Source: a virus. Taken from it: DNA of 28,588 nt. Numbering within the stretch: the first letter of the stretch is position 1; every line of letters begins with the position of its first letter. The position numbers and the translations under genes were made by a program. The stretch covers positions 1-28,588 of the IMG/VR virus record IMGVR_UViG_3300049434_000094; one strand, 5' to 3'. Positions 1 through 28,588 of the stretch are shown here, piece by piece. The notes under the pieces were generated by a model that saw only the letters and a program-made list of their open reading frames with translations, made no database searches and was not told where the DNA came from.

Positions 1-642
1 ATGAATCACGATATTGAACGCATCGAGAGTTTTCGTCGCGCTAAACACATCCCGCGGCATAAATGGGCGGCGATTACTGGTATTCATCCGAAACAGCTCG
101 AACGTTATCTCAACGGGCGGCATCTGCCACGATCAGGTGTCTTGGCAAAGCTCGTGAGAGCGGCGCGACAGATTACTGGCGTGCTCGTGAACGTATCTGA
201 ACTTTATGACTTGGGCGAAGATGAACCGGTGTGCAGGGTTCAGGCGGTTCGCCGACCACCGAACCCGCGTAGGTTCTACGATACTCGTTTCGATCGATTC
301 TTGAGGCGCGAAGGCATTCTGCCTTCGCAACTAGCTCGTGAGTCAGATTTGCCGCGGCAGGTGATATTGCGGAAGCGTACCGGTGCCGAGGTAACGGTCG
401 GTTCGGCGACGGTGTCGATGGAGCTGTTCGCGTCTACCGCCATCCGACAGCAACCACCATACTTCTGCGACGAGCGAATGGACCCGTTCGAAGTCATCAC
501 GGGATTGTTGTCGGTTATCAGTTGTCTGCGAGTTGCCGGCTCGGCGCAAAGGCCCAGACAACCGACAACTGACAACCGACAACAGCTCCGCTGCAACTAC
601 AAGGCAAGCACCATCACAACCGCCGCCTCCCCGTCCGGGTAA
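1..642 (+). CDS. helix-turn-helix (XRE-like) DNA-binding protein, host-side gene
   Basis: The gene opens with ATG at the first base of the window, so an upstream start cannot be excluded. Residues about 7-75 look like a Cro/CI-type helix-turn-helix (RRAKHIPRHKWAAITGI followed by KQLERYLNGR). Residues about 95-140 look like a second, weaker copy (FDRFLRREGILPSQLARESD). This suggests a duplicated-HTH regulator, but the target is unknown. The last 45 or so residues come from translation through an imperfect inverted repeat of 7-bp units (507-584) and past the stop of the convergent acetyltransferase remnant. The native C-terminus was therefore probably altered by repeat insertion. It lies outside the phage segment and is most likely a chromosomal gene. 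Confidence 0.55.
   Translation: MNHDIERIESFRRAKHIPRHKWAAITGIHPKQLERYLNGRHLPRSGVLAKLVRAARQITGVLVNVSELYDLGEDEPVCRVQAVRRPPNPRRFYDTRFDRFLRREGILPSQLARESDLPRQVILRKRTGAEVTVGSATVSMELFASTAIRQQPPYFCDERMDPFEVITGLLSVISCLRVAGSAQRPRQPTTDNRQQLRCNYKASTITTAASPSG
507..584. repeat. hairpin of heptanucleotide units (GTTGTCN / NGACAAC)
   Basis: The left arm has three consecutive 7-bp units of the form GTTGTCG with small changes (507-527). The right arm has four units of the complementary form NGACAAC (556-583). The arms pair with few mismatches around a loop of about 28 nt. The hairpin lies inside the 3' end of the plus-strand HTH gene and directly downstream of the stop of the minus-strand acetyltransferase remnant, so it could also act as a convergent terminator. 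Heptad-based dispersed repeats of this general look are known from several bacterial phyla; the assignment here is by eye. Confidence 0.6.
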
Positions 643-766
643 TAGCGCGGCCTGAGATGCGAGGTGGCGAAGTCGAGGTGGCGGTAGAAGTCCTGCGCGC
701 CTTCGTTCGAGCGGCGCACTTCGAGGGCGATCGATTTCACACCGTGCTGGCGGGCGAAGGCGGGAC
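597..766 (-). pseudogene. C-terminal fragment of a GNAT (RimI-like) N-acetyltransferase
   Basis: The last 56 or so codons of this frame carry the typical end of a GNAT fold: a FARQHGVKSIALEVR helix-strand, the SNEGAQDFYRHLDF segment (family pattern sN..A..fYrrlGF), then RPRYYPDGEAAVVMVL, as in RimI-type protein N-acetyltransferases. Upstream of about 760 the frame loses any acetyltransferase character, and the tape-measure reading frame of the phage takes over. The acetyl-CoA binding loop and N-terminal two thirds are missing, so this is a remnant. The junction at roughly 755-775 is where phage and host DNA meet. The missing 5' part would be expected on the far side of the prophage, to the right of this window, if the gene was the insertion target. 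Confidence 0.7.
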
Positions 767-2722
767 CTTGTTGATCGCGTCGCGATCGGAGTTGAAAACG
801 TCCGCGCTGAGCGCGTCTTTGAGCTGCGCTTTCTGCGCATTCAGTTTCGAGAGCGCGTCCTGGCGTTCGGCCCGGATCTTCGCGAGCGCTTGGGAGAGAG
901 GATCGCCCGCGGCGTTTGCCTGCGCGCGGTAGTCGTTGATGAACCGGAAATACTCTTCCCGGTCGCGCTGCAACTGCTCCGCGGCCTTGGCAGCTCGGGC
1001 GCCGGCTTTCGGATCGCCCGCCGCACTCGGAGAGCCGTTCGGCCTGCCCGTGACTCCGAGCGCCTGTGCGGCCTTCTTCCCGAGTTCTGTCAGCTCGGGA
1101 AGCTGGCCGCTCAGCCACGCCGCCGCATTGCTCCATGCGTCTTTGACTAGATCGGCCGCGCCGCCCAGCCCGTTCTTCGTGTCGAGCGCGGCGCCGATCT
1201 TCTCGGCCGCCACACCGCGTAGCTCGCCGAGGATCGAGGCCGTCGACCGCAGCGATTCGAACGCCTGCTTCGCGTTGTCGACCGGCTTGAACGCATTAGT
1301 GAGCTGCCGTTCGATTTGAGCGGCTACGCCCTTCAACGTGTCGAAGCCGGGAATCAGCTTCGCGACACTCGCCGGAATACTTTCTAGGACTCGATTGACC
1401 TGCGCGACGACGAAGTGAATCGGCGCGAGAATCACGTCCGCGAGCCCGCCGAAGACCGCCTTCGTTGCGTACCAGAGGGCTTTGACCGCGCCGACTTGCG
1501 CCGTAATGGATGCGATCCACGACGTTGCGACGAGCTGCATCGTCGCGCGCACGTATGCGGCGATCGGCCGGCCGCCGACTTCGATCTCTGAGTATTTCCG
1601 CGCCTTCTCCCAAACGAGAGCCATCGCGACGATGCCGGCGATCGTCAGCGTGATTGGCGAGGTGAGCGCGGCGATTGCGGCGCCGAGGACGCCGTAAGCG
1701 ATGACCGCGGTTCCGACGACGGCGCCGATCGAGAAAATCTCTTCGACGAGGCCGCGGTGCGACTTCATCCACTTGCCGAGCGACGTAACGACGACATCGA
1801 TGCCGCCGACCACACGCTGTACGAACGTCACGATCGCGTCGCCGTTCTTGTCGAAGAACTGGAAGATCGCGTCGAGCGCGCCCTTGCTTTTCTCCAGCGC
1901 CGGACCGAGCGCGCGCGAGAACGTCGACACGATGATCTCGATCGTGTTGACGAGCTTTCCGCGGACGGTGTTCGACTGCGCTTCTGCGCTCCGCGCGTAA
2001 CCTTCGGTGCGGCGCATCACCTCGGCGACGAGGGTGCCGTTCGCCTGCATCCGCTTGATGGAGCTGTTGTCGAGGCCCAGGCGCTTCGCGATGACGGAGT
2101 CCTGAGTAATCTGGCCGGTGAGGAGCGAATTGATCTCCTGACGGATTTGCTCCATCGGGATCTTCATCGCGTTCGCCGTTTGAGTGAGGCGCGTCGTGAG
2201 CTGCACGACCGCGCTGTTCTCGATGCGGATGCCTGCTTGATTGAGTGCGCCGTAGACGATCGCGAATGCGTCGGCGATCTGCGGCACAGTGGCCGCGGTC
2301 TTCAGCGACTCGCGCTGCAGCTCCTGCATGAGCGCCGTCGATTCGAGGTTCGCCGCCTGAAACGCGGTGTTCGAATCGACGACGTTGCCGAGCGAGTCGG
2401 TGTATTTACTGTTCGCGAAGAGCAGACCCGCAATCGCGATCTGCGTCCCTTCGAGTTCTTGGTTGTAGTCGAAGACCTGCTTTGCAAAAACGCCGACGGC
2501 CGCTGATCCGCCGAGGACGGCGAGCCAGCGGCGCGTCGATCCGGATAGCTCGCCGAAAACGGACGACTGCCGGCGAGCTTCCGCGTTCGTTTGGCGGATC
2601 TCGGACTGGAGTCTGTTTTCAGACGACGCCAGCTCATTCAGCGTGCGGCCGAAGCCGGCAATGACCGGCTGTCCGTCCGCACGCGCGATGAGTCTGATGA
2701 GAAGTTGTTTTTCGGCTGCCAA
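737..2722 (-). CDS. phage tail tape measure protein, 3' end fused to host DNA
   Basis: The product is a 661-residue protein starting at TTG (2722), 4 nt after the stop of the upstream tail chaperone frame. It begins with a short strand-rich segment and a coiled coil (about residues 25-60). A tape-measure N-domain follows (ELEGTQIAIAGLLFAN, then LKTAATVPQIADAFAIVYGA, then KIPMEQIRQEINSLLTGQI). A hydrophobic stretch sits near residues 335-375, and a second coiled coil near 590-645. Tape measures set tail length and are injected with the DNA. The final residues (after about DRDAIN) are not phage-like: the same DNA in another frame encodes the acetyltransferase remnant. The true C-terminus is therefore lost and no downstream tail genes follow. 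The family call rests on overall pattern and position after the frameshifted chaperone. Confidence 0.8.
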   Translation of the reverse strand: MAAEKQLLIRLIARADGQPVIAGFGRTLNELASSENRLQSEIRQTNAEARRQSSVFGELSGSTRRWLAVLGGSAAVGVFAKQVFDYNQELEGTQIAIAGLLFANSKYTDSLGNVVDSNTAFQAANLESTALMQELQRESLKTAATVPQIADAFAIVYGALNQAGIRIENSAVVQLTTRLTQTANAMKIPMEQIRQEINSLLTGQITQDSVIAKRLGLDNSSIKRMQANGTLVAEVMRRTEGYARSAEAQSNTVRGKLVNTIEIIVSTFSRALGPALEKSKGALDAIFQFFDKNGDAIVTFVQRVVGGIDVVVTSLGKWMKSHRGLVEEIFSIGAVVGTAVIAYGVLGAAIAALTSPITLTIAGIVAMALVWEKARKYSEIEVGGRPIAAYVRATMQLVATSWIASITAQVGAVKALWYATKAVFGGLADVILAPIHFVVAQVNRVLESIPASVAKLIPGFDTLKGVAAQIERQLTNAFKPVDNAKQAFESLRSTASILGELRGVAAEKIGAALDTKNGLGGAADLVKDAWSNAAAWLSGQLPELTELGKKAAQALGVTGRPNGSPSAAGDPKAGARAAKAAEQLQRDREEYFRFINDYRAQANAAGDPLSQALAKIRAERQDALSKLNAQKAQLKDALSADVFNSDRDAINKVPPSPASTV

Positions 2723-2726
2723 GCCT

Positions 2727-3176
2727 TCAGACGCCCTTGCCGTTGTCCTCGGTGGTGGCGCGGGCGCAGCTCGCGACGAATACCTCGACGATCAGTTGGA
2801 ACTTTTCGAGGGTGTCGAGCTGCTCTTCGGGAGGGATCTCGAGTAGATCCATCTTCCACTTGAGGGTGGATTCGTCGATGCCGACGATGGTCCCGAAGCC
2901 CGCTGTGATGAGCTGCCGGTGGCACGCTAAGAAGAGATCCCACGCCGCTTCGTTCTCCGGCATGAGAGCGGGAGGCGTGAGGGCAGATGCGTCGAAGCGG
3001 GGAACGTAGGGCCGTCCCTCGAACTCCGCGCGTCGGCGAAGCGCTGCCTCTGATCTGGCGACCGCGCTTGCGACCTCGCCCTGCTCGCCGAATCTCCACT
3101 CGGCGTGCGCGACTAGTTTTTTCTTTCGTCCGCTTTCTTCGCGCGGCCGTATTCGACGCAGCGCTCGATCTGCCAC
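2727..3176 (-). CDS. tail assembly chaperone, frameshift extension (gpT-like, DUF1799-like)
   Basis: This frame overlaps the end of the upstream chaperone gene. It has only a weak GTG (3176), with no good ribosome binding site. It is most likely expressed as a -1 frameshift extension, entering at 3116 and adding about 129 residues, so the fusion would be about 350 residues. The segment NEAAWDLFLACHRQLITAGF and the following GIDESTLKWKMDLL resemble the DUF1799 family of phage proteins found just before tape measures. In long-tailed phages the G and G-T products act as chaperones that coat the tape measure during tail assembly and leave before maturation. The stop at 2727 is followed 4 nt later by the tape-measure start. 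Confidence 0.75.
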   Translation of the reverse strand: MADRALRRIRPREESGRKKKLVAHAEWRFGEQGEVASAVARSEAALRRRAEFEGRPYVPRFDASALTPPALMPENEAAWDLFLACHRQLITAGFGTIVGIDESTLKWKMDLLEIPPEEQLDTLEKFQLIVEVFVASCARATTEDNGKGV

Positions 3177-5882: not shown

Positions 5883-6830
5883 TTAGGCGTTGTGAGTTGC
5901 TACGGCATTGGTCAGCGTGAACGTGATCGGCGAATCGGCATCGGTTCCAACGATCCCGTCAAACGCGAACTCCTGCGTGATCGCCTGACCGCTCTGTTTC
6001 TTGAGGCCCTTCGGTTCGAGCTTCGCCTCCGGCACCCGCGCGCCGAAGGAGCTCGTGCCGCGCGTAATCGTTGCGTCGATCGCGAGCTTCGTTCCGCTGC
6101 GCGCTTTCGCGTACAGCGTGTCGCCCGTGAAGAGAACCGTCACGGTGCCGGTAACTGTGATGTTCCCGATGATGAGCGCGCGGCAGATGCCGGCGTTGCC
6201 GGCGCGCACCTCGATGACTTCGCGCTTCACGTTGAGCGAGAGCTTCTGAACGATTCCTTCATCGACGCCATCGGTGAGCGTCGACCAGTTCATCATCTCG
6301 GCCGGAGGACCGACAACTTCCGTCGGTGTCGCGTCCATCGAGGCGTCCGCCGGAATGAGAAGTCCAGAGCCGACCGTCTTGAACGTCGGCTTAAAGAGTC
6401 CTTCCTGTTCGTACTCGACGTTGCACTCGCTGAAGACCTGATCGACGTATTGGTAATACTTGGCGCCAGCGAGGCCCTCTTCGATGACGTAGTAGGTGAC
6501 TGTCTTCCCCGGCTTCCCGGTGTGCGTGTACGGCGCAGATGCACCGACCGTGGTCATCGTTCCGCAGAACGCGTAGAGCGGATATCCGACGAGATCGAGG
6601 TTCGCGATGAGCGGCAGATCCGCTCCCGAACGGTGATTGCCGAGCGCCGGCTCCCGGTTGTAGCCGTCCGCATAGCGTGCGTCGTTCTCGACCTTGTTGC
6701 GCGAATGCTCCGGACCTTGCGCGCCCTTCGCGATCGGAAGGACGTAGGCGACGGCGGCGCCAGGAACGGCGCCGAACGTCGTCTGCTTCGCCATCGTTGT
6801 GACGAGATCGTTCTCTGTGAAATAACCCAC
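5883..6830 (-). CDS. phage tail tube protein
   Basis: I choose GTG at 6830, with GGGAGG 9 nt upstream, giving 315 residues. A GTG at 6854 is in frame but its GAGGGA lies directly against it. The protein is beta-rich with repeated strand patterns (LSLNVKREVIEVRAGNAG, then ALIIGNITVTGTVTVLFTGD), Gly/Thr-rich throughout and without signal or membrane segments. It resembles the single-domain-plus-insert tube proteins of siphophages. Tube protein polymerises around the tape measure to form the tail lumen. No sheath gene is found beside it, which argues for a non-contractile tail although the head module is Mu-like. Confidence 0.7.
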   Translation of the reverse strand: MGYFTENDLVTTMAKQTTFGAVPGAAVAYVLPIAKGAQGPEHSRNKVENDARYADGYNREPALGNHRSGADLPLIANLDLVGYPLYAFCGTMTTVGASAPYTHTGKPGKTVTYYVIEEGLAGAKYYQYVDQVFSECNVEYEQEGLFKPTFKTVGSGLLIPADASMDATPTEVVGPPAEMMNWSTLTDGVDEGIVQKLSLNVKREVIEVRAGNAGICRALIIGNITVTGTVTVLFTGDTLYAKARSGTKLAIDATITRGTSSFGARVPEAKLEPKGLKKQSGQAITQEFAFDGIVGTDADSPITFTLTNAVATHNA

Positions 6831-7100
6831 TGCCTGAACCCTCCCAGTGGTCACTCCCTCGCGCGCGGAGGAGCGCAGCTCGGCGCTGCCCGGCGCGTCA
6901 GGCGTTGTTGTTGTGGTTGCTTTTGAACCCGTGCGGGCGTTCGGGCGCGTAGGGCGCCATATGCGAGAAGTCGCGTTGGTGGACGTCTTGCTTTCTTCTT
7001 CTTGCCTCGTTACGGGAAACCCCGCGTACGAGTGAGAGAAAGCGGCTGCTCAGGGACGTGCGTACAAGTGCCGCTGACGGAACACGAGAGAGGAGAATCT

Positions 7101-12615: not shown

Positions 12616-13629
12616 TTAGGTGATGACGCGATCGGCGAGGAACATGCGGTTATTGCCCGTTGCCGTCGCACGCCACATGACGCCCCACTTATCGACGACC
12701 GGGTAGATATCCGCGTCGCGATCCTTGTCGCGGTGCGGTTCGCGCACGATCGGGAATCCTTTACGCCGCACGATCGCGCCGGCGAGCGGCGCGTCGATGG
12801 TTGGCTTGTCGATCTTGCGGTAGATGACGACGACGTTCGTCCAGAGGTGGAAGAACTGAATCGTGCGCGTGTCCTTCGGATCGGTTTGCGTCTGGTACTT
12901 GCCGCTGAGGATCTTGACTTCCTTCACGCTCCAGATCGCGGCAAGGTGCGCCTCGGTTGCCGGCTGTTTGAAGCCAGCCGTCGTGATGATCTGGCACTTC
13001 GGATGGTTCTTCACTTTCGTGAAGACATCCATCGGAAGTCCGACCGTGAACGAGCGGCGGTCGACCTCGTGCGAGACTTCGAGCGCGGTACACCAGCGAT
13101 CGACATCGACGTTCGGATCGGAGTTGACGTAGTCGCTCCACCGAAGTGCTGAGGCGGCGATCGTCTCTTTGAAACCGGCCGCGAAGTTCGTCGGACTGGA
13201 AACGAAGTCGCGAACCGTTTTTTCTTTAAAGAGCGTCAGCGAGTCGCCGGCGCGTTGGATCGTGCGATCCTTGAACGCCTCCCGGTCGTCGGGCTCGATC
13301 TCGTTCAGCTCCTCGTCGTAAAGGATGGCGTCGAGGCCAACCTTCACCATCTTGTAGTCGCCGTGCGAGAGCTGAATCGAGACGCTCTTCCGCTTTTCGC
13401 CGAGCGGCTGGACAAGGCCGGCGACGATCTTGTGACCGTCGGCGCCGAACTCGGTCCAGCTTCCGCGCTCGCGACTGACGTCTACGGTCGGCAGGATCTC
13501 GTTCGCGCCGACGAAGTCCGGCCGCCCGTAGCCGGAGATCAGAGCGCTCTCGTGCGGGAGACCTGACTGCAAATCCTCCGTTCGAGACTGACTTGAAACT
13601 TCGAGTGCCTCGATTTCGGAGACACTCAT
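12616..13629 (-). CDS. major capsid protein
   Basis: I choose ATG at 13629 (MSVSEIEALEVSSQSRTEDL), giving 337 residues; GTG or ATG starts up to 13665 are in frame in a purine-rich stretch (AGGGAG, AGGGGG). The protein has the length, composition and position (after protease/scaffold and decoration genes) of an HK97-fold major head protein of Mu-like phages. Visible segments include GRPDFVGANEILPTVDVSRE near the N-terminal arm, FKETIAASALRWSDYVNSDP in a spine-helix-like region, and the final VMWRATATGNNRMFLADRVI typical of the last strands. It should be the main virion protein. Confidence 0.8.
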   Translation of the reverse strand: MSVSEIEALEVSSQSRTEDLQSGLPHESALISGYGRPDFVGANEILPTVDVSRERGSWTEFGADGHKIVAGLVQPLGEKRKSVSIQLSHGDYKMVKVGLDAILYDEELNEIEPDDREAFKDRTIQRAGDSLTLFKEKTVRDFVSSPTNFAAGFKETIAASALRWSDYVNSDPNVDVDRWCTALEVSHEVDRRSFTVGLPMDVFTKVKNHPKCQIITTAGFKQPATEAHLAAIWSVKEVKILSGKYQTQTDPKDTRTIQFFHLWTNVVVIYRKIDKPTIDAPLAGAIVRRKGFPIVREPHRDKDRDADIYPVVDKWGVMWRATATGNNRMFLADRVIT

Positions 13630-13749
13630 TCCATTGCGGGTTTTCCCCCTCACTCCCTCTCCCATGACGCCCGCAGGGCGCTTCGTTGTGGTGTTGTTGG
13701 ATTAGCGCCGTCACTCGCGACTGCGGTCGCGGCGGCGCGGAGCGCGGCG

Positions 13750-14303: not shown

Positions 14304-15719
14304 TTACGCGGCGACGCGCAGCGATTCGAGACGGAGCCTGTTCGCCTCGGGATAGGTGAGGCCCTTCTCGTTTGCGATGGCGATCGTCTCTGCGAACACC
14401 GATGCCGAGGCCTTCAGAGACTCGCTCGCGTCGTCAGGCAGCGCCGCCGCGCGCTCGTCACGTCGCTGCCGTGCGGCTTCGCGCGCGTCGGCTGTTGGCG
14501 TAGGCGCATCGGACTGCGTTGCGAGGTCGATCGAGGTCACCTGCAATCCTTCGAGCGACGACAGCGCGAGCGCGACGTCACTCTTCGCGACGCGAATCAG
14601 GTCCGCTTCGAATGCGGGCGTGATCTGTTTGCCGGCCTTTCGCTGCCGCGCGATCTCGAACGCGATCCGCTCCTCGGCACTCTTCGTCTCGGCCACGGCG
14701 AGACGTTCCTCGAGTTCGCGAACTCTCTCAGCCGATGCGCTCGACGCTTTGAGACTCATGACCGCGAGCGCAAGCTCACGCGTGTCGGTTGTCTCGATGC
14801 CGAGCGCGAGAGCGATCGGCGTAAGATCGACGGCCAATGAGCCGTCTTTCCGTTCCGCACGGGCTCCATCCGCGCCCGCCTTTTGCGAAGTCGCCTCGAT
14901 CGCGGCGGTGAGCTGTTCGTCGCCGAGGAGATGCGCGATTCGTTTCGCGCTCGCGCCTCCTGACTCCGAGCCCTCCTCCAGAAAGATTGTCTCTTCGGTG
15001 TCCGGCACCAGCTCCGCTAGTTTGACCAGATCCGCGCGCAGCTCCTTTCCGGTGACGGTGATCGGCCGTCCCACCGTGAAGCGCAGACTCTCCAAAAGTT
15101 GATTCAACTCTTTCTCCCTCCCTCCCTTGTTGTTTGCTGTTGCACACAGGAGCCTGAGTGGCGCGCCGCCCTTGTTTTGTGATGTGCGCTCGATGCCGAA
15201 GTCGGTCCGCGCGTGATCGGTGATGTACGGCCGGTGCCAGGATCCTGGGTTGTTCGTGAGCGCGAGGTGCCTCAGGCCATAGATCCGGTCGTCTTTGCGC
15301 GACCAAAAAAAGCTCGGTGAGTCGTAGTAATACTCGCCGGCTTCGAGCTGCGCTCTCGCCCTTTCGGTCCATTCGACGCGAGCGAGAAGTCCGCTCGCGC
15401 CTCCCGCGCGCAACTCGACGATTCGTCCCGCGGCCGGCGCCTCGACGTCCTTGTCCGAGAGGTGTTCGTAATCGACTACGAGGTCGTTGCCGCGGAGATT
15501 GAAAAAGTCGACGCAGCTCTCCTGACTGATCTCGTCTGTGATCCAAGTCTTCTTCTCGCCGTCGAGTTCACCGACATACGTCGGCGATGGAAAAATCTGA
15601 ACCCACTCCGGGGCTGGCCCGCCCATTCTCTGCGAGCCGCGCCGGAGGCGTCCGGCTCTCAGCCACAGGAGCGCGGGCGCGATTTCGGGTACGCATCGCG
15701 CGGCACTCTGTTCCCTCAC
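14304..15719 (-). CDS. prohead protease/scaffold (Mu gpI-like)
   Basis: I choose GTG at 15719, with GGAGAGG 9 nt upstream; GTG 15725 is nearly as good. The product has about 471 residues. The N-terminal 190 residues fit the Mu gpI protease: PEWVQIFPSPTYVGELDGEK, then LRGNDLVVDYEHLSD (conserved D-Y-E-H, likely including the catalytic His) and YYYDSPSFFW, then LRHLALTNNPG. The C-terminal half is an Ala/Glu-rich coiled coil (ERVRELEERLAVAETKSAEE...), as expected for scaffold (Z) produced together with the protease. It probably cleaves itself and the scaffold during head maturation. The adjacent plus-strand cargo genes separate it from the MuF gene. Confidence 0.88.
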   Translation of the reverse strand: MREQSAARCVPEIAPALLWLRAGRLRRGSQRMGGPAPEWVQIFPSPTYVGELDGEKKTWITDEISQESCVDFFNLRGNDLVVDYEHLSDKDVEAPAAGRIVELRAGGASGLLARVEWTERARAQLEAGEYYYDSPSFFWSRKDDRIYGLRHLALTNNPGSWHRPYITDHARTDFGIERTSQNKGGAPLRLLCATANNKGGREKELNQLLESLRFTVGRPITVTGKELRADLVKLAELVPDTEETIFLEEGSESGGASAKRIAHLLGDEQLTAAIEATSQKAGADGARAERKDGSLAVDLTPIALALGIETTDTRELALAVMSLKASSASAERVRELEERLAVAETKSAEERIAFEIARQRKAGKQITPAFEADLIRVAKSDVALALSSLEGLQVTSIDLATQSDAPTPTADAREAARQRRDERAAALPDDASESLKASASVFAETIAIANEKGLTYPEANRLRLESLRVAA

Positions 15720-15765
15720 TCCCACTTGCCCCTCTCCCTTTGTAATAGCACCGCCGTTTAGCGGA

Positions 15766-15793
15766 CAGATTTGCGCAGTTCCGCCCAAATCTG
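15766..15793. promoter_or_regulatory. 8-bp inverted repeat in the divergent region before the cargo pair
   Basis: CAGATTTG and CAAATCTG are perfect inverted copies separated by 12 nt. They lie in the 200-bp gap between the divergently read protease gene and the cargo gene at 15932. This could be an operator or a hairpin; no protein is tied to it. Confidence 0.3.
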
Positions 15794-15931
15794 ACGGGAG
15801 ACTGCCAGTGCCAGCCTGCCCAACTTCACGTTGCAGACTGAACGTGGTTCGTCGCGCACTGGTCAATTCGCGAGACCGAGGGTAGGGAACCGGTGCGCCG
15901 CTGACTCTCCTTAGATATAGGAGGACATGCG

Positions 15932-16285
15932 ATGGGCAACGGCGGAACACGAATAATGGAACCTGAAGTCAGTGCCCAAGCCGTGGCAGACTTCGACCCT
16001 GAGATCTTCGTTAAAACGACAATAGCCAACTTCGAGAACCAAACAGGTGCGATGGTTACGCGAAGTGCCGAAAGCCTCATCGTCGATCCAGCGATCCAGC
16101 ATCGCGACCGCATCATGGAGGAAGTACATGCGCATAATGTGACCGAGGATGTGATTGCTGACGCGGTAGTGACTCTCCTGCGAAACGCCGTACGGTTCGC
16201 GCAAGAAGAAGGTAGTGATGTGGTCGAGGACAGACACGTGAAACGCGCGATGCTATTTGAGTGTCGTTGGTTTCCGTGGTGTTGA
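15932..16285 (+). CDS. small acidic protein, weakly histone-fold-like (cargo gene)
   Basis: ATG at 15932 is preceded by AGGAGG with 7 nt spacing. The product has 117 residues and no signal peptide. The C-terminal part VTEDVIADAVVTLLRNAVRF followed by EEGSDVVEDRHVKRAM resembles the second half of histone folds (long helix ending A..fA...G, short strand V, then helix with HVxxAM). The first helix is not obvious and the central helix would be about 7 residues short. The resemblance is by eye only and the protein is acidic. It overlaps or abuts the next gene (its stop is 2 nt before that ATG), so the two form an operon on the strand opposite the head genes. Confidence 0.65.
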   Translation: MGNGGTRIMEPEVSAQAVADFDPEIFVKTTIANFENQTGAMVTRSAESLIVDPAIQHRDRIMEEVHAHNVTEDVIADAVVTLLRNAVRFAQEEGSDVVEDRHVKRAMLFECRWFPWC

Positions 16286-16813: not shown

Positions 16814-18016
16814 TCAGTCGGCGAGATCGGAACGAGAGCGCGTGAGAAGGCCGATGCGGTAAGCCTCGATGTTGCGCGGCACGATCGTCTGCCACAACCA
16901 ACCGTCCGCCGTGCGATCGAGGACGATCGTTTGGACCCCGCCGCGAGGTGCGGCGAACGCTCCGATGTAGCGCTTGACGAATGTCGTTCCGCGTTCTGAC
17001 GCAAACGGCACGAGCCATACTTCGAACGGATCGCGCAGCGTCGGCAGGATGAGCGGAAAGAAGCGACCGTTCCCTCCTGCGAATTCACCTTGCGCGTCTG
17101 TCAGAGCGAGGTCGAACGTGTCGCGATTGATGCGCAAACCGTCGCTCGCGTAGTCGAGCACCCACGTTCCCGATCCGTTCTCGATCCCGACCAGCCGCTG
17201 AAACACTTCCCACGCGCGTCCGAGCGCACCTTGCGGCACCGCGTTCCCGAGGCGCGGTAGCGGCGAAAGAAGATCGACGTCGGCATCCACGATCGGCGCG
17301 AGGCCATAGTCCGCGGGCGTCTTGTGCCGAAGGCGATCGCCGAGTGCGCGCGCGCTTTCCATGAAGACTTTGTCGTCTGCTCCCATCGCATCGGACGCAC
17401 TGAAGTCCCATCCATCCGCGGGCCGAAGCGTCTGACCGTTGATGACCGGGTACTCGTAACCTTCGGGACTGCGGTAGACGAGTCGCGGATCGACTTCATC
17501 GGCGCCGAGTGAAACCCAATGCTGCCGTTCCCAATGATGGTTCGGAGGCCACCAGTGCTTCAAGATCGGGTCGGTGTAATGGACGATCACTCCGAGGAGC
17601 GGCTTGCAGATCGCGGAGTTCCGTCCGTCCTTCGGCCCGCGATATTGAAAGAACGGGCGGTCCTCCACGAACTCCATCGCCGCTTTCCACTCACCCGCGG
17701 CGTTCGCGGTGACCATCGCGTTGTGGACGACGAGTTCGAAGCGGCTGCCCGGAAGAATCGTCCCGCCGTGTTTCTCGACGATCGCGCTCACTTCGTTCGC
17801 GATCTCCGGTGTCGTCTTGTTCGTGGCGATTCCGTCGTCGATGACGCGCGTTACGGCGAGTAGCGAATCCATCTTCGCGAGGCCAGTCATCGTCATCGCC
17901 CGCGGCCGGCTCGCATCCATCGCCCTGCTATAGAAGTCAGGCGGGAGGAGCGTTGTCCGCTTCTGGTGAAACTCCAGCGCGTCGCGATAGACGCCGATGC
18001 GTGCTGCCTCTGGCAT
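16814..18016 (-). CDS. MuF head morphogenesis protein with C-terminal PBECR-type nuclease-like domain
   Basis: ATG at 18016 follows the portal stop by 3 nt. Residues about 50-190 fit the MuF head-protein domain, including ATNKTTPEIANEVSAIVEKH, then VHNAMVTANAAGEW and WWPPNHHWERQHWVSLG. The PPNH of the family is kept, but the usual CRC cluster after it is replaced by WERQHW. The C-terminal 110 or so residues (ALTDAQGEFAGGNGRFFPLI, then LRDPFEVWLVPF, then IEAYRIGLLTRSR) match the layout of phage barnase-EndoU-ColicinE5/D-RelE-like (PBECR) domains that are often fused to MuF proteins. Such fusions may be ejected with the DNA and act on host RNA; activity here is not shown. Confidence 0.8.
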   Translation of the reverse strand: MPEAARIGVYRDALEFHQKRTTLLPPDFYSRAMDASRPRAMTMTGLAKMDSLLAVTRVIDDGIATNKTTPEIANEVSAIVEKHGGTILPGSRFELVVHNAMVTANAAGEWKAAMEFVEDRPFFQYRGPKDGRNSAICKPLLGVIVHYTDPILKHWWPPNHHWERQHWVSLGADEVDPRLVYRSPEGYEYPVINGQTLRPADGWDFSASDAMGADDKVFMESARALGDRLRHKTPADYGLAPIVDADVDLLSPLPRLGNAVPQGALGRAWEVFQRLVGIENGSGTWVLDYASDGLRINRDTFDLALTDAQGEFAGGNGRFFPLILPTLRDPFEVWLVPFASERGTTFVKRYIGAFAAPRGGVQTIVLDRTADGWLWQTIVPRNIEAYRIGLLTRSRSDLAD

Positions 18017-18019
18017 CCC

Positions 18020-19906
18020 TTACGCGGCCTTCCGATCGGTGCCGCGTTCCGACTCGGCGGCGATGGCGATCGCCTCGGCGAGAGTCATCCCTTCAGCGAG
18101 CGCTTCGCCGGCCTTCGTGTGATCGAAGCTGTCGTACTGCTCGGCGAGGAAGTCGCGCATTTCGGCGGGCGAGAGGTTACGCTGCTTTGCGTCCTCGATC
18201 GCCGCGAGGAGTTGCGCCGTCTCCTGCTCCGCGGCGCGCCTGTGCATGAAGACCCCGGCAATGACGGCGTCCGTCAGCGTGCGAATGACCGGCCCTTCGT
18301 CGGCGTCTGCACGTTGAGAGGAGCGGCGCAGACTCTGCGCGGCGGGTTTCCTCTCCTCGTTGTTCGCCCCGTCGTTCTGCTCGTTCTTCGGTTTCTCACG
18401 TTCGGGCGGTTTTGCGTGCTTGAGCTGCTCGTCGACCATCTCCTCGGCTTCTTCGATCGTGTAGCCGGCGCCCTTAATCATCTTGACGGCCGCTTTCGGC
18501 GCGATGACGCCGAGCGTGACGTCCTTCAGCGTCTCGCGCACCTGGGCCATACCGATGCCCGTCACCGACTGCGTGGTCGCTACACCGGCTTCGCCGGTTG
18601 GCACTGGCGTCTGGCCGTTTGCAGCCGTTCCGTTTGCGGCAGGCGCCCCAGGCGCAGCTCCCGGTACGAGAGGCGTTCGCGGTACGAGATTCGGTACGCC
18701 CGCGACCTCCTTCACGTGCTCGGGGTCGATCATCAGACCCGCGGGCTCGATGACGCGGTTCCACTCGACGTACGTTGTCGCCTTCTGTTTCGCGTCCTCG
18801 GGCGGATCGACTTTGAACTGGAGGTACGGCAGGCGCGCGAGGAACCGCGGACCGTGATGCAGCGCGACGATCGTGCGAATGAGACCTTGCCGCACGCTGC
18901 CGGCGACGCGCTTCGCGATGGCTCTCGTGATCCTCAGATTCGTTCGCTGGGCGCCCTCGCCAGCGAGCGTTCCCGTTCCGGACTTCGCATCGACGATCAG
19001 CGTGTGACCGCAGACCGCCTTCGTCGCCTGCTCGTGCGCGAACTTCGCGAGCCCTTCGTAGATGTCCTTGCTGGCATTGAGCGCCTGTTCGAGGTCCAGC
19101 TTCGCGCTGGCCGGCAGCACACCCGCGAAGTCGACGCCGATACGCATTACCGCTTCGATGAGCGAGGGTTTGTCGTTCGGGTCAGTGAAGTAGGCGACCG
19201 GGATCGGCTTTCCGTACTTCTCCGCGAACGCGAGCCAATCGACGGTCGCGAAGCGCGCGACCATGTAATAAAACGCCAGCGCGCGGAAGAGTCGCGTCTT
19301 CCTCGGATTCTGCGGATGAACCGAATGGAGGGTCCAAAGGCCAGGCTTCAGTGATTCGCCAAACGGCTGCGCCTCGGTGAGGAGCCGCAGCTCGTTCCCG
19401 ACGTACTTGAACCGCACGCCATCCGGCAGGTTGAAGCCTTCCGGCAGGAACGTATTCGGATCGAACCTCGTCTCTGCTGCCGTCAGCGGATACAGGCCAT
19501 CGCCCCAAGCAAGGTGTTCGAAGTACGCTTCGATGGAAGCGATGCCGTACAGCTTTTCGGCAACGCTCTCGGCGACCTTCTTGTCCTCGTCCTTCGGAGT
19601 TCCGTTCGGTGATTCCGTGTACGGCTGCACGTCCCACTCGGCGCCGCTCACGGACGAAACGCGATCGGTCGCAATCGAGAGGAAGTGTGCATCGAGATAG
19701 ATGCGGTCGCAGAGCGCGATCATGTCGGCGAGTTCGGCCGTGTTGCGCCCGATACGAACGAGCGTCTCGGGATTGATCTCGCGCAGCTCTCTTGACGCCC
19801 ACCGATTTGCTACCCGCCCGATGTCCGCCTGGCTCGATGTGTCGAGCTTCGATGGAAGCGCAAGCACTTCCCCATAGGGACCGTAAAGGGTCGGATCGTT
19901 CGGCAT
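18020..19906 (-). CDS. portal protein (DUF935, Mu gp29-like)
   Basis: The 628-residue product has the DUF935 portal core: SIATDRVSSVSGAEWDVQPY near residue 80, the EHLAWGDGLYPLTAAETRFD segment, WTLHSVHPQNPRKTRLFRAL and KYGKPIPVAYFTD. The helical region LEQALNASKDIYEGLAKFAH and the long C-terminal helices with ERKPAAQSLRRSSQRADADE follow. Portals form the dodecameric ring through which DNA enters and leaves the head. It is longer than Mu gp29 (about 510) because of a Gly/Pro/Ala-rich linker near residues 400-430 and a charged stretch near 500-530. ATG at 19906 lies 25 bp from the terminase stop. Confidence 0.9.
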   Translation of the reverse strand: MPNDPTLYGPYGEVLALPSKLDTSSQADIGRVANRWASRELREINPETLVRIGRNTAELADMIALCDRIYLDAHFLSIATDRVSSVSGAEWDVQPYTESPNGTPKDEDKKVAESVAEKLYGIASIEAYFEHLAWGDGLYPLTAAETRFDPNTFLPEGFNLPDGVRFKYVGNELRLLTEAQPFGESLKPGLWTLHSVHPQNPRKTRLFRALAFYYMVARFATVDWLAFAEKYGKPIPVAYFTDPNDKPSLIEAVMRIGVDFAGVLPASAKLDLEQALNASKDIYEGLAKFAHEQATKAVCGHTLIVDAKSGTGTLAGEGAQRTNLRITRAIAKRVAGSVRQGLIRTIVALHHGPRFLARLPYLQFKVDPPEDAKQKATTYVEWNRVIEPAGLMIDPEHVKEVAGVPNLVPRTPLVPGAAPGAPAANGTAANGQTPVPTGEAGVATTQSVTGIGMAQVRETLKDVTLGVIAPKAAVKMIKGAGYTIEEAEEMVDEQLKHAKPPEREKPKNEQNDGANNEERKPAAQSLRRSSQRADADEGPVIRTLTDAVIAGVFMHRRAAEQETAQLLAAIEDAKQRNLSPAEMRDFLAEQYDSFDHTKAGEALAEGMTLAEAIAIAAESERGTDRKAA

Positions 19907-19930: not shown

Positions 19931-21742
19931 CTAGGCCGCAACCTTCGCAAGACGCTCGCGCCGGCTCACGAAACGCTTCGCCGCGAAGTCGTCGGCGTCA
20001 GTAAGGATCGCGAGTGCATCGCGACGCGACGTCTGCGGGAGCGGTGTCACTGCGAACGGCAGGATCGAAGGAGCGATGAGGCGCGCCACGAGCGCGGCTG
20101 CCGCGGCCATCGCGAAATGGTTGTCTACGTTGTCAATGAACCGATGAATCTCGTTGCCGCGGGCGTCTTTGTCCGCGACCTTCTGGAGCTTCTTGAGATG
20201 CTCGCGCACATCTTTCATGACGGGCGTTTTTTCATCCGGGATGAGAAGCCCGCGTTGTGCGTGCGTCGCTTCAGCGCACCAGCGCTCCAAGAGGCGATTG
20301 CGGTCGATCTTCGCAAGCCAGAACTTTGGCGTCAGCTCTTCGTCGCGATGAGCACTGCCGAGCGAGTCGTCCGTAATCATCTGCTCGAAAAGCGTCAGCT
20401 CCTTGCCGTTGTCGAACTGAAGGAGCGCGAGCCGTTGCCGGTGTTCCGACGCGAGCCGCTGCGAAGAATCAAAAAGCGGCATCATGTCGCTCACGCCAAA
20501 GCGCGGCTCCAGCTCCGCGATCAGCTCGTGCGTTCGTTTGACCCACGAGTGACTGTGCATCCGTTCGGCGTAGATGAGGCGCGGACGCTGCTCAGAGACG
20601 ATCCACTCCTCGGCCCAAAACCAGCACGCCTTGCCGAGATCGATCCCGAAGAAGATCGGGTCGTTCGTGCGTGCGAGCTTGAGGACGTAAGGCCGCGCCA
20701 TTTTCTGAAGCACGACGTCCGTGATCGGTTGCATCGCGCCGGCATCAGCCATCGCGCGGACGGAGCGATTGAAAATCGCCATGTCCTCGGGATCGGCATT
20801 CGCGAGCGCGTCGTGGTACGCCTTCATGATCGCGTTGCCGTCGATCGCCGAAATCGCGAGAGCTGAGATGCGGAAGGAGAAGTGCGGCTCTGCTCCGTTC
20901 TCGCGCTCCGGATACCGCGCAACGAAGCGTCCTCCCGCTACATCGAGCGGCGCCTGGCATGAGGGGCAGACGCGAATCCAATCAGCGCCCACCTGGCGCA
21001 TGCACTCTGGAAATGCTTCTTCGAGACAGACCTCGCGCGCGTCACAGCTTGCGCAGTTGATGAGCCAGCGCCGCTGCGATCCGTCCTGAAAGCGCTTGTC
21101 GATGCCGGAGTTCGCGGCGTACGGCGCCGAGAAGTCCAGCTCGAAACGCAGCATCGAATGGCGCATGCGGCCGGTCTTCCACTTGCGCACCGCTTCCGAC
21201 GTCAGGTCGACCTCATCCGACACCTGCAGATCCATCGGACGCGATGTCGCGCCTTTCAGCTTGGCCAGACCGAGCAGGTAAACGTACTTGTCGCGGAACT
21301 GTTTGAGCGTGCCGCGCTCCACATCACCGTCGCTTGCGAGCCGCGCGAGGTATTCGGACTCGTTGATGATCGGCGTGAGCTTGGCAAGTCCCCATTCCTT
21401 CGCGAACTCGTCGTCAGGGAGAAAGTAACCGCCGTTGTATCCGTGCTCGACCGCCGCCCATACCGGCACCGCGAGCGCGAGCGTCGTAAACCCGATCTGT
21501 TCGCCTTTGATCGTTGTAACGCGCGCGTCTTTTACGCCTCCACGAATCAGAGAATCGATCGTTTCCACGACTACGCCGAGCGGTTCGTGACCGACAATCG
21601 ACCAAGGACCGTTGTCGGTTTTGACCTCGATCTCGAGGAACTCGCGCAACGTGAGGCCTCGTCTGTCTCGCGAGACGCCTGACGCCTCAGTGCGCGCTTG
21701 CTCTGCGCGCAGCTCGCGCGCGAGTCCCCCGGCGAAAGTCAT
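19931..21742 (-). CDS. terminase large subunit
   Basis: ATG at 21742 follows the upstream stop TAA directly. The ATPase region has a deviant Walker A (TTIKGEQIGFTTLALAVP), as in GpA-like terminases. Between ATPase and nuclease lies a zinc-finger-like cluster (CASCDAREVC ... ECMRQ ... CPSC). The nuclease half begins with a strand bearing Asp (DPIFFGIDLGKACWFWAEEW) and ends with FIDNVDNHFAMAAAAALVA. The enzyme cuts concatemeric or, in Mu-like phages, integrated DNA and pumps it into the prohead. At 603 residues its length is normal. The small terminase (24691-25380) is separated from it by inserted genes. Confidence 0.85.
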   Translation of the reverse strand: MTFAGGLARELRAEQARTEASGVSRDRRGLTLREFLEIEVKTDNGPWSIVGHEPLGVVVETIDSLIRGGVKDARVTTIKGEQIGFTTLALAVPVWAAVEHGYNGGYFLPDDEFAKEWGLAKLTPIINESEYLARLASDGDVERGTLKQFRDKYVYLLGLAKLKGATSRPMDLQVSDEVDLTSEAVRKWKTGRMRHSMLRFELDFSAPYAANSGIDKRFQDGSQRRWLINCASCDAREVCLEEAFPECMRQVGADWIRVCPSCQAPLDVAGGRFVARYPERENGAEPHFSFRISALAISAIDGNAIMKAYHDALANADPEDMAIFNRSVRAMADAGAMQPITDVVLQKMARPYVLKLARTNDPIFFGIDLGKACWFWAEEWIVSEQRPRLIYAERMHSHSWVKRTHELIAELEPRFGVSDMMPLFDSSQRLASEHRQRLALLQFDNGKELTLFEQMITDDSLGSAHRDEELTPKFWLAKIDRNRLLERWCAEATHAQRGLLIPDEKTPVMKDVREHLKKLQKVADKDARGNEIHRFIDNVDNHFAMAAAAALVARLIAPSILPFAVTPLPQTSRRDALAILTDADDFAAKRFVSRRERLAKVAA

Positions 21743-24316: not shown

Positions 24317-24694
24317 CTAGGCGAATTCTTCGATGGGACGTGCCGCCATCGTCGCTGCGAGCCGATCGAGGAACGAATTCGCCTCGACCGCTCCATCAGC
24401 GAGCAGTTCCGACAGCTCAGGCGTAACGTTCGGGTCGGTGTCCCGAATGTCGCCGCGTGCGATCTCGTCGGCGTACACGGCTACCTGTGCGTGGATCTTC
24501 TCCTCGCCGACGAAGCGAGTGACCGTCACGATCGCGGCGACTGTCCGCGGCGGCTCATCCTCTTTCGCTCGGATCGGCAGACGCGCCGTCGTGTTTACGA
24601 GATGTCGACGCGGATGCGTCGGAAACGGAACGACGTTCGCGTCACTGCTGGAGTGGTTCGCCAGGAGGTGCTTTTCAAAGTCGCGATCGATCAT
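24317..24694 (-). CDS. phage protein of unknown function after small terminase
   Basis: The ATG (24694) overlaps the TGA of the small terminase gene as ATGA, so translation is coupled. The 125-residue product has a basic N-terminus (FPTHPRRHLVNTTARLPIRA), a beta-rich core (RTVAAIVTVTRFVGEEKIHA) and a helical acidic end (VTPELSELLADGAVEANSFL). No membrane segment or known motif. Coupling to the small terminase suggests a packaging or early head role. Confidence 0.6.
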   Translation of the reverse strand: MIDRDFEKHLLANHSSSDANVVPFPTHPRRHLVNTTARLPIRAKEDEPPRTVAAIVTVTRFVGEEKIHAQVAVYADEIARGDIRDTDPNVTPELSELLADGAVEANSFLDRLAATMAARPIEEFA

Positions 24695-25380
24695 TTCTTC
24701 TCCGTTGATGCCTCGGCGTTGTCAATTGCCGCCAGCACCAGGTCGAGTGCTTCAGGTTGATCTTTGAGAACCGCCACAATCTCGGCGCGTGCCTGCGCAT
24801 AGGCGCGTCGTGCTCCGATTCCGGCGGCTCTTCGCTCTGCTTCACGCCGTGCCGAAGACGTCTGGAGCTTCCGATGCAGGTCGATGAGGGACGCTGCCTT
24901 TGCAGAAACGCCCGGTTCCTCATGCAGCTCGTTTTCGAGGGCGTTGAGAAGGCTCGCATTCGCAAGCGCCGTAATCGTCGCTTCCGTCGCGAGGACATCC
25001 TCCCCGCCGATCGCAGCGCTGAGCGCTGCTGTCTGATCCGCGAGCGTTTGCTTCTGCGCCCGCTCCGCGTTCCATCGAATCCAATGTGTATGGATTGAAG
25101 TCTTTCCGGTGCGGAAGCCCGCCGCGCGGATCTTCGGCCAGAAGGGCGTCTTTTTCAGACGCTCTTCAATTTCTTTGAACGACGCCCGCGGCACCTTTTC
25201 GAACTCGGCCTCGAGCCACTCGGCCAGTCCTGGGATCTGCGGGATGAGTGGTTGCCCGCGCCGGCCACGATTCTCCGGAGGCGTCGGACGGCGGCGCTGT
25301 TCCGTCGCCGTCCATCGCTGCGAGCACTGCGTGCAGCCGCTGCAAGCGGTGTGGGCGCGTGCCGTGCTATGCCGCGGCAT
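24691..25380 (-). CDS. small terminase subunit (DUF3486, Mu gp27-like)
   Basis: The 229-residue product begins with a basic Cys-containing leader (HTACSGCTQCSQRW), then a DUF3486-like domain: IPGLAEWLEAEFEKVPRASF, KEIEERLKKTPFWPKIRAAG and a WIRWNAERAQK segment. A helical C-terminal part follows (LANASLLNALENELHEEPGV ... AEIVAVLKDQPEALDLVLAA). In Mu-like phages this protein recognises the packaging signal and works with the large terminase. The start overlaps the end of the upstream gene by 14 bp. The N-terminal CxxC..C leader (about 35 residues) is unusual and may be an addition, or a later start may be used. Confidence 0.7.
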   Translation of the reverse strand: MPRHSTARAHTACSGCTQCSQRWTATEQRRRPTPPENRGRRGQPLIPQIPGLAEWLEAEFEKVPRASFKEIEERLKKTPFWPKIRAAGFRTGKTSIHTHWIRWNAERAQKQTLADQTAALSAAIGGEDVLATEATITALANASLLNALENELHEEPGVSAKAASLIDLHRKLQTSSARREAERRAAGIGARRAYAQARAEIVAVLKDQPEALDLVLAAIDNAEASTEKK

Positions 25381-25681: not shown

Positions 25682-26036
25682 CGCCCTCTCCCTTCCGTTG
25701 TTGATATTGAGTTTTCCGTTCTCCTCGGCTGGCTCAACGCATGTCCATTGCGTTAGTGGTTGGACCGAGGGACGGTGCCGCTCTCGTGAAGCAGGCCCGC
25801 CCGCGCGCGGGTGGAGTCCGTAGTGACTCTTCCGTCGACTGCCTTGCCCGCGCGTCGGGCGAGAGCTGCAACAAGACATCGGGAGGCGAATGGTTGGACC
25901 GCCGTTGTGGAGTGATAACGGTGCCGACGCGGGGCGCGTCGTGCTGTTGGTTCCGTTTCCCGGTTCGCGATCTGTGGGTTGGTCGCGTTGAGTGCGAAGC
26001 CCGGTCCCGATGTCTTGTTGCAGCCCTCGCGGGGCT
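25682..26036. other. 355-bp non-coding stretch with a perfect inverted repeat
   Basis: This gap between the DUF1353 gene and the coiled-coil gene (both minus) has no supportable gene. It holds the inverted repeat 25865-25884/26005-26024 and several GC palindromes such as CCCGCGCGCGGG near 25798. The words GGTTGGACCG recur near 25760 and 25890. Confidence 0.5.
25865..26024. repeat. perfect 20-bp inverted repeat with 120-bp interior
   Basis: Left arm 25865-25884 (GCTGCAACAAGACATCGGGA) is repeated exactly, inverted, at 26005-26024. Outside the arms the match continues for about 6 bp with one mismatch (GCGAGA versus GCGAGG). The interior codes for nothing recognisable. The arms could fold into a long RNA stem in the phage mRNA, or be the ends of a miniature element. 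No target duplication was identified. Confidence 0.75.
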
Positions 26037-26684: not shown

Positions 26685-27189
26685 GCGCGTTCTCCTCGTG
26701 CTACTTGTTTGGATTGGTTGGAACCGATTGCTACAACCCGAAGAGCCCGCCTGATCTTGGATGCGATCGGTACGACTCCGGGTATCGAGGTTGGATTGTC
26801 TTTGGCAGCTCGACTGGAGTCTCGCTTCAACCCGTGCGGCCCTTGCTCCGGCCGCCCTCACAACGATGCGAAGAATAGGGGCGGAGTCCGCAGAACACCA
26901 TGACCCTATCTCGCCATGCGCGTCGTTACGTGTGCTTATGTACGCCTACGATCGCTAACTTTCAGGGTTGAGAGGCGCCGAATGCCGACTCGAAGCGTCA
27001 ATTCGTTGGGGAAATATATTGTAATGTCCCTTATGAATCATTGGATAAATATGCTGAAATGTCCATTATGATTCGTGGGATAAATAATCTGAAATGTCCA
27101 TTATGAGTGTCGCCTGCGACCGGTGCGCAAACCATAAGTGTCTGTGCACACAGAAATATATGCAACTGTAGACGGTTAACTTATTTGAC
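26685..27189. promoter_or_regulatory. divergent control region with AT-rich repeats
   Basis: The 505 bp between the DUF1353 start (26684, reading left) and the HTH gene start (27190, reading right) hold no supportable gene. The right half is much richer in A+T than the surroundings and contains three 35-bp direct repeats, each with a TAAATA or AAATAT stretch that could serve as a -10 element. A TGTGCACA palindrome lies near 27143. It is the likely site of promoters for both directions. Confidence 0.5.
27002..27106. repeat. three tandem 35-bp direct repeats
   Basis: The units are 27002-27036, 27037-27071 and 27072-27106. Units 2 and 3 agree at 30 of 35 positions and units 1 and 3 at 27 of 35. 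The most constant part is AATGTCC(A/C)TTATGA at the end of each unit; GGATAAATA marks the middle of units 2 and 3. They look like repeated protein-binding sites rather than coding repeats. Candidate binders are the adjacent HTH protein or the Mu-type transposase. Confidence 0.85.
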
Positions 27190-27543
27190 GTGTCCTCTGG
27201 CCTGACCCCCGAATATCTGAGAGAACGCTACTCGCTCAAGAAGGTGTGCGAGATTCTCGACTGCGACGAAGTCACTCTCCGGCGCTGGCTGCGCGAGGGG
27301 GGAGTACCGCTCGAAGACGGCCGACGCATAAAGATTTCCTTCATCCCTCTCGGAGTGAGGAACAAGGTGTTCCTGAAGGAAGAGATTGATCGCGTCTGGC
27401 GTGAACTGAAAGCGGCAGGCGAAGAGATGGCGATGGCGGACGTTCTCGATTTTCCCGCGGAGGATGAGCGGCGCGAGCGGGCTCGCCATTCGGAGTCCGA
27501 GCACGAGCGGCGGCGAGGTAGCTCGAACCGGCGCATATCGTGA
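27190..27543 (+). CDS. small helix-turn-helix (excisionase/MerR-like) regulator
   Basis: GTG at 27190 is the only plausible start; no strong Shine-Dalgarno is visible. The product has 117 residues. Residues 8-60 form a winged helix-turn-helix of the excisionase/MerR-like kind (YSLKKVCEILDCDEVTLRRW, then FIPLGVRNKVFLKEEIDRVW). A Glu/Arg-rich tail follows. It is read opposite to the phage block and convergent with the transposase. The 35-bp repeats lie 84 bp upstream, so autoregulation or control of the leftward genes is plausible. It might be a phage repressor or activator. Confidence 0.7.
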   Translation: MSSGLTPEYLRERYSLKKVCEILDCDEVTLRRWLREGGVPLEDGRRIKISFIPLGVRNKVFLKEEIDRVWRELKAAGEEMAMADVLDFPAEDERRERARHSESEHERRRGSSNRRIS

Positions 27544-27646: not shown

Positions 27647-28588
27647 TCAGACTCCGCGGCGGCGCTCCAGCTCATCGAAGCGCTCCTTTACTCCCTCGGG
27701 CCAGGGCTGCTTTCCCGTTCGACACTGGAGAAGGTGCTTGAGTGAGATACCGAGTGTCGCCGCGATGTTTCGCCATGACAGTTCGCCATCGCTTCGCGTG
27801 CGCCGCGGCTGCGCTGGAGGCTGCGCGAGCAGCGCTGCGCGTCGTGAGGCATCTGCGGTTGTCGTGCTGCTGCCGCGCAGTCGCTCGATCGCTTCGAAGC
27901 GCTCCTGCATTCCGGCCGGCCATCGGAGCTGACCCTTTCGATACCGCACGAGCGTGCGGAGCGCGATGCCGAGCATGTTGGCGATCGTGCCGTATGACAG
28001 CTCGTCGTCACGGAGGTTCGTTCGCGTCCGGTCTTTCTTCACACGTCGCGGGGAGACGACGCAGAGCGACTGCGCAGCGGCGTCGTCAGCGTCGAGAACC
28101 GCTTCCAGAATCGTCGCCGTGACTTCGGTCGGCAACGAGCCCGCGCTCTGCCGCGCAACCGTCGAGAACTGCCCGATTGCCACGACGGGATTTCCTGTAT
28201 CCGTCTTTCCACGCGCCGCCTCAAGCTCCGCGAAGCGTTGCAAGACGTACTGAATCTTCGCTCGCCGGTAGTCGGCGAAGCGTTCCTTGGCGCCTTCGAC
28301 GTACGCCGCGGCCATGCGTTTCAGCTCCTTGTTGTCGCTGAAGACGCGAGCGATGAGGCGCCGCGTTACCTCGTCGCGCGAGCTGTACGTTGCGTCCTCG
28401 GGATCAACCTGTGCGTTGCATACGAATGCGCCCGTCGCGCGATCGAGGATGATCGCGGACATCGGGTCGTCTGGATTCGGGCGGAAGTCCACGCGCTCGC
28501 CGAAGTATTCAAGGTGCTTGTGGAGCGATGTCAGACGGCAGATGCGTCCCTCATGCTGGATACCGTTCTGCCCGACGACGCGTCCGCC
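27647..28588 (-). CDS. Mu A-like transposase, C-terminal part (5' end beyond window)
   Basis: The frame is open to the right edge, giving 313 visible residues. The first 60 or so (GRVVGQNGIQHEGRICRL ... ERVDFRPNPDDPMSAIILDR, then GAFVCNAQVDP) match the Mu transposase C-terminal beta-barrel. A basic helical stretch follows (ELKRMAAAYVEGAKERFADY). The last 120 residues carry two similar 43-residue modules (27872-28000 and 27653-27781; 21 of 43 residues identical), each looking like a helix-turn-helix (LSYGTIANMLGI and LSWRNIAATLGI) followed by RWPAGMQERFEAIERLRG-type helices. The catalytic DDE core should lie to the right of the window. No Mu B-type ATPase gene follows it. Confidence 0.8.
   Translation of the reverse strand, partial: GGRVVGQNGIQHEGRICRLTSLHKHLEYFGERVDFRPNPDDPMSAIILDRATGAFVCNAQVDPEDATYSSRDEVTRRLIARVFSDNKELKRMAAAYVEGAKERFADYRRAKIQYVLQRFAELEAARGKTDTGNPVVAIGQFSTVARQSAGSLPTEVTATILEAVLDADDAAAQSLCVVSPRRVKKDRTRTNLRDDELSYGTIANMLGIALRTLVRYRKGQLRWPAGMQERFEAIERLRGSSTTTADASRRAALLAQPPAQPRRTRSDGELSWRNIAATLGISLKHLLQCRTGKQPWPEGVKERFDELERRRGV

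Follow-up and report, generated by a model that had tools for sequence, protein, structure and literature searches.

Cryptic and defective prophages, in which part of a phage genome has lost one end and is joined to host DNA, are well established. Among transposable phages, Escherichia phage Mu and Pseudomonas phage D3112 share their set of portal, F protein, protease and terminase genes with the DNA studied here (portal 25.3% and 24.6% identical, respectively), but these are distant relatives that, unlike it, have complete tail modules. The DNA analysed, referred to below as the window, is the whole of a complete linear IMG/VR record of 28588 bp. As in cryptic prophages generally, the phage genome in it is incomplete, having lost one end and being fused to host DNA; the sole difference is that no secondary decay is visible. 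We consider it likely, at roughly 80%, that the window is a defective transposable prophage of an Acidobacteriota bacterium, in which a deletion or other end-joining rearrangement cut both the tail tape-measure gene and the host gene rimI and joined what remained of them.

An alignment of terminases led to four related IMG/VR records (3300025944_000014, 3300050821_023950, 3300044737_000120 and 3300024323_000012). These, together with a prophage in the Acidobacteriota genome G037 (contig C75, about 55-90 kb), share with the window the order terminase, portal, F protein, protease, capsid, tail and tape measure, with large terminases 50-53% and portals 29-55% identical to those of the window. For the G037 prophage the identities were 53% (large terminase), 51% (portal) and 46% (both F protein and capsid). 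Other searches were less productive: scanning viral_contigs singly with the tape measure, the portal and a tail protein gave no close relatives, nor did a two-sequence portal alignment used as query, while a portal alignment built with Mu/D3112-type phages returned 160 loci, none above 32% identity and none with a match to the tape measure in the flanks compared. The literature on transposable phages of Acidobacteria and on comparable tape-measure truncations yielded nothing directly useful. All recognisable late phage genes of the window lie on the minus strand and form a Mu-type structural module (portal, F protein, I protease and Gp27/GpA terminase, in Mu order). The features referred to below are as follows.

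1-642, plus strand: host-flank open reading frame (ORF) with two helix-turn-helix (HTH)-like stretches (Pfam HTH_31, E 9e-4)
597-761, minus strand: 3' third of rimI, last ~55 codons plus stop (TIGR01575; intact RimI in 17/18 genomes of the host family)
758-782, no strand: breakpoint interval between tape measure and rimI (best estimate 759-767)
767-2722, minus strand: tail tape-measure gene, cut short at ~652 codons where 1340-1630 are expected (PHROG 167/4200/28; relatives 1341-1629 aa)
2727-3176, minus strand: small protein preceding the tape measure, DUF1799 (Pfam E 2e-6; 50% to G037)
5883-6854, minus strand: tail protein, full length (phrog_290 minor tail protein, E 5e-26; 51% to G037, full length)
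12616-13665, minus strand: major capsid protein, full length (phrog_1005, E 1e-28; 46% to G037)
14304-15950, minus strand: Mu I-like protease/scaffold, full length (Pfam Mu-like_Pro, E 7e-32; 42% to G037)
16814-18016, minus strand: Mu F-like minor head protein, full length (Phage_Mu_F, 6e-5; 46% to G037)
18020-19906, minus strand: Mu-type portal, full length (Pfam Portal_Mu, 2e-45; 51-55% to G037)
19931-21742, minus strand: large terminase, full length (GpA_ATPase, 4e-12; 50-53% to the five relatives)
24691-25380, minus strand: small terminase, Mu Gp27-like (Pfam Phage_Mu_Gp27, 2e-5; phrog_426)
27647-28588, minus strand: ORF truncated by the end of the record, probably the C-terminal portion of a MuA-type transposase (weak match to the relatives' MuA)

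Where a late gene has a counterpart in G037, it reaches its normal end with no frameshift or stop; the tape measure alone is cut. The ORF at 737-2722 (minus strand) matches PHROG tape-measure families over residues 69-572, and its matches among distant tape measures, which come mostly from cyanophages, are 23-27% identical. Against the G037 tape measure (1341 aa), window residues 3-317 align at 25% identity, and a second block (window residues 604-652 against G037 465-514; 46%, E 2e-9) reaches nt ~767. The match with the tape measure of G700 stops at about the same point (window residues 565-647), and the final ~10 residues of the ORF are rimI DNA read in another frame. The window tape measure is thus cut at residue ~652, with the distal ~60% of the gene missing. 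In G037, by contrast, it runs on for ~826 residues past the point matching the window break. On its 3' side lie a gene of ~170 aa and a long ORF resembling a tail fibre, after which host genes similar to pdxA, hfq and etfB begin. In the four IMG/VR relatives, whose distal regions are in some cases cut by the end of the stretch or record, tape-measure ORFs of 1585-1629 aa precede smaller genes and a tail ORF of ~970-1200 aa. All five syntenic phages therefore have a full-length tape measure and distal tail genes, which the window lacks. The DNA between the break and the final phage gene, ~8-9 kb in both G037 and G700, has no counterpart in the window: positions 1-758 contain no tail gene, and past the tape measure no gene for a tail tip, a fibre or a phage end was found, as the initial annotation had stated. 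An intact relative whose tape measure ends in the same residues was also sought, with a negative result. Virion genes present in intact relatives have thus been lost, and, because there is no decay elsewhere in the phage, the event that formed the joint is either recent on the time scale of prophage decay or artificial.

On the other side of the joint, window positions 597-770 (minus strand) encode 57 aa that match the NCBIfam TIGR01575 (rimI) profile at positions 84-132 of 132 (E 2.2e-12), in keeping with the C-terminal third of a GNAT acetyltransferase that had been proposed in the other frame. The complete GNAT domain of a functional RimI is absent: the fragment shares the last 49 profile positions with RimI (ribosomal protein S18-alanine N-acetyltransferase) and lacks the first ~95 codons. 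Within one Acidobacteriota family of 18 genomes, 17 have a full-length RimI, whose C-terminus is 53-80% identical to the fragment. The match starts at fragment residue ~4-5, corresponding to nt ~758-761, at the same place against all 17 sequences; FARQHGVKSIALEVRRSN of the window fits RimI, and the residues before it are unlike the conserved RimI stretch RRQGIAxxLMxxC. At the nucleotide level, rimI of G696 covered 612-758 of the window by blastn (78%). The rimI sequence begins at nt 758-761, and its ~95 N-terminal codons are gone. Taken with the truncation seen against the five relatives, the RimI comparison upholds the original claim of a prophage cut inside its tape measure and joined to a rimI-type gene.

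Some phages do carry GNAT genes (phrog_4470, E 0.0065), and the fragment could in principle be phage-borne cargo next to a naturally short tape measure. We rejected this reading as highly improbable on the basis of the RimI alignment and the tape measures of the five relatives: the N-terminal two thirds of the GNAT are absent, the fragment runs to the native RimI C-terminus and resembles the RimI of a single host family, and the related phages have tape measures of twice the length, followed by tail genes. The alignments support the interpretation that the fragment is host rimI rather than phage cargo.

The host was sought with the RimI fragment in 396 genomes of Acidobacteriota (the phylum of a Bryobacterales genome) and 282 Myxococcota genomes. 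Identity was 56-71% in the best Acidobacteriota group and at most 56% in Myxococcota, and the 18-genome family of the genome with the best RimI, G294, was taken as the host family. A portal search of the 396 Acidobacteriota genomes gave G037 as the closest (55%), with two others at 33% or less. Since G037 belongs to the family defined through rimI, the phage and its flank point to the same host, apparently an Acidobacteriota bacterium, and the element is attached to host DNA in the form of a rimI fragment of that family.

The remainder of the left flank is less informative. ORF 1-642 has weak homologues near its residues 91-138 in 6 of the 18 family genomes and matches nothing in the five related phages; its true 3' end is uncertain because the final ~50 codons cross intergenic repeats and the antisense of rimI. 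Short GTTGTCGG/CCGACAAC-type repeats occupy 495-590, between the HTH ORF and the rimI stop codon. Positions 1-596 found no match in the four rimI neighbourhoods that were compared, and positions 1-1500 found none in plasmids. The ATG of ORF 1-642 is the first codon of the record, whose other end falls within the minus-strand ORF 27647-28588, which is still open. That the start coincides exactly with an ATG suggests that the record is a provirus trimmed to the edge of a gene.

With tape-measure homology ending at residue 647-652 and rimI homology starting at 758-761, the breakpoint falls between ~758 and 782, close to the frame change at about 755-775 that was noted initially. The homology limits of the two sides lie within ~10 bases of each other, with no long shared word apparent at the joint. 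A 33-mer spanning the joint was absent from every other IMG/VR record (viral_contigs), so that the joint has no second witness. It was seen once, in one metagenomic contig, and every other late gene is intact, as expected of a functional phage; both points would also suit an assembly or library chimera, in which a Mu-like phage or prophage and a rimI locus, both intact and deriving from one organism or from two neighbouring ones, were fused by artefact. We regard such a chimera as unlikely. A de Bruijn misjoin requires a shared k-mer, and no long one is apparent at the joint, where a short one may still lie; moreover, rimI homology stops at 758-761 and the tape measure fits to the right of it. 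Phage and rimI also indicate the same host family independently, although this agreement is a weaker argument for a real joint than it looks because phage and host share one sample. Alignment shows each gene to be cut short at the joint, and each has intact homologues, the two occurring together in G037.

In the favoured reading of a defective transposable prophage, a prophage with Mu-type head and packaging genes would have resided in an Acidobacteriota chromosome until illegitimate recombination, or some other rearrangement that joins ends, deleted the distal ~60% of the tape measure along with all tail-tip and fibre genes and the phage end on that side. The same event would have removed the first ~95 codons of host rimI, and the two remainders would have been joined at ~nt 759-767. 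We infer that the event was single and that it was a deletion, not an inversion or translocation. Of the two ends at which a transposable phage would be flanked by host DNA with a short target duplication, one lies beyond 28588 and the other is lost at the joint. The record ends inside a phage gene (the MuA-type C-terminus), so that the 5' part of rimI and the other phage-host boundary lie outside it, and for this reason the joint itself does not distinguish a deletion from the other rearrangements. An inversion or translocation in the host, with the distal phage and 5' rimI joined reciprocally elsewhere in the chromosome, would fit with one of two breakpoints being visible and with no decay elsewhere, yet nothing in the 28.6 kb record speaks positively for it and we hold it to be improbable. 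Phages of the Mu type insert with little preference for particular sites, so nothing requires rimI to have been the target. The prophage could have entered rimI itself, in the 5' portion now missing, or the DNA upstream of that gene, and a deletion extending out of the tape measure would then have reached rimI; the evidence is as compatible with an insertion lying further right as with one in rimI.

The element should no longer make tailed virions, because the tape-measure C-terminus, tail tip and fibre genes are absent, and it should no longer transpose as a unit, because one phage end is lost. Of the initial annotation's proposal that it can neither build virions nor excise, the first half thus stands, given that virion assembly would need the lost tail genes. 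The second half was misworded, as the relatives are transposable and transposable phages do not excise; what the loss of one end should block is transposition. The intact packaging, capsid and several tail genes would also allow a reading in which the truncated element is kept by selection, either forming its own heads and borrowing the distal tail of a helper phage, in the manner of capsid-forming satellites, or acting as a transfer agent, but we give this analogy very little credence. The element is an ordinary defective-prophage scar and a clean instance of prophage inactivation in Acidobacteriota. It leaves the understanding of prophage decay unchanged, and the comparison brought out a small lineage of related transposable phages together with their host family.

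That the five relatives are transposable phages rests on their coding sequences, as all five encode homologues of MuA and MuB (phrog_310, E 1.5e-74, and phrog_296, E 1e-49, in G037; 28-38% identity in the others). In the window, ORF 27647-28588 matched G037 MuA weakly (28.7% over 123 aa, E 0.01), and an HMM of the five relatives' MuA likewise gave a weak match to its residues 2-62 (15 bits, hhalign probability 67%). This ORF is probably the C-terminal part of a MuA-type transposase. A MuB gene was not found in the 28588-bp record, including the DNA behind the MuA-like piece. Whereas MuA and MuB of the five relatives point away from the late operon, the transposase-like end of the window points toward the late genes. 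One member of this small lineage of transposable phages, in which A and B diverge from the late operon, is a prophage in an Acidobacteriota genome.

Several minor features were observed along the way. Behind the probable MuA-type C-terminus (27647-28588) there appear to be two tandem HTH repeats. Three head-to-tail direct repeats of 35 bp, 74-77% alike, lie at 27003-27107 (near TCATTGGATAAATATNCTGAAATGTCCATTATGA), adjoining an HTH_17/MerR-like ORF (27190-27543, plus strand); these could be putative binding sites for a transposase or repressor. Upstream of the late genes, at 25859-26030, we found an inverted repeat of 26 nt that is 96% complementary, with its arms 120 nt apart. Finally, the Mu F-like protein (16814-18016) carries a C-terminal PBECR2 (Barnase/EndoU/ColicinE5-like) nuclease-like domain (Pfam, E 5e-9).
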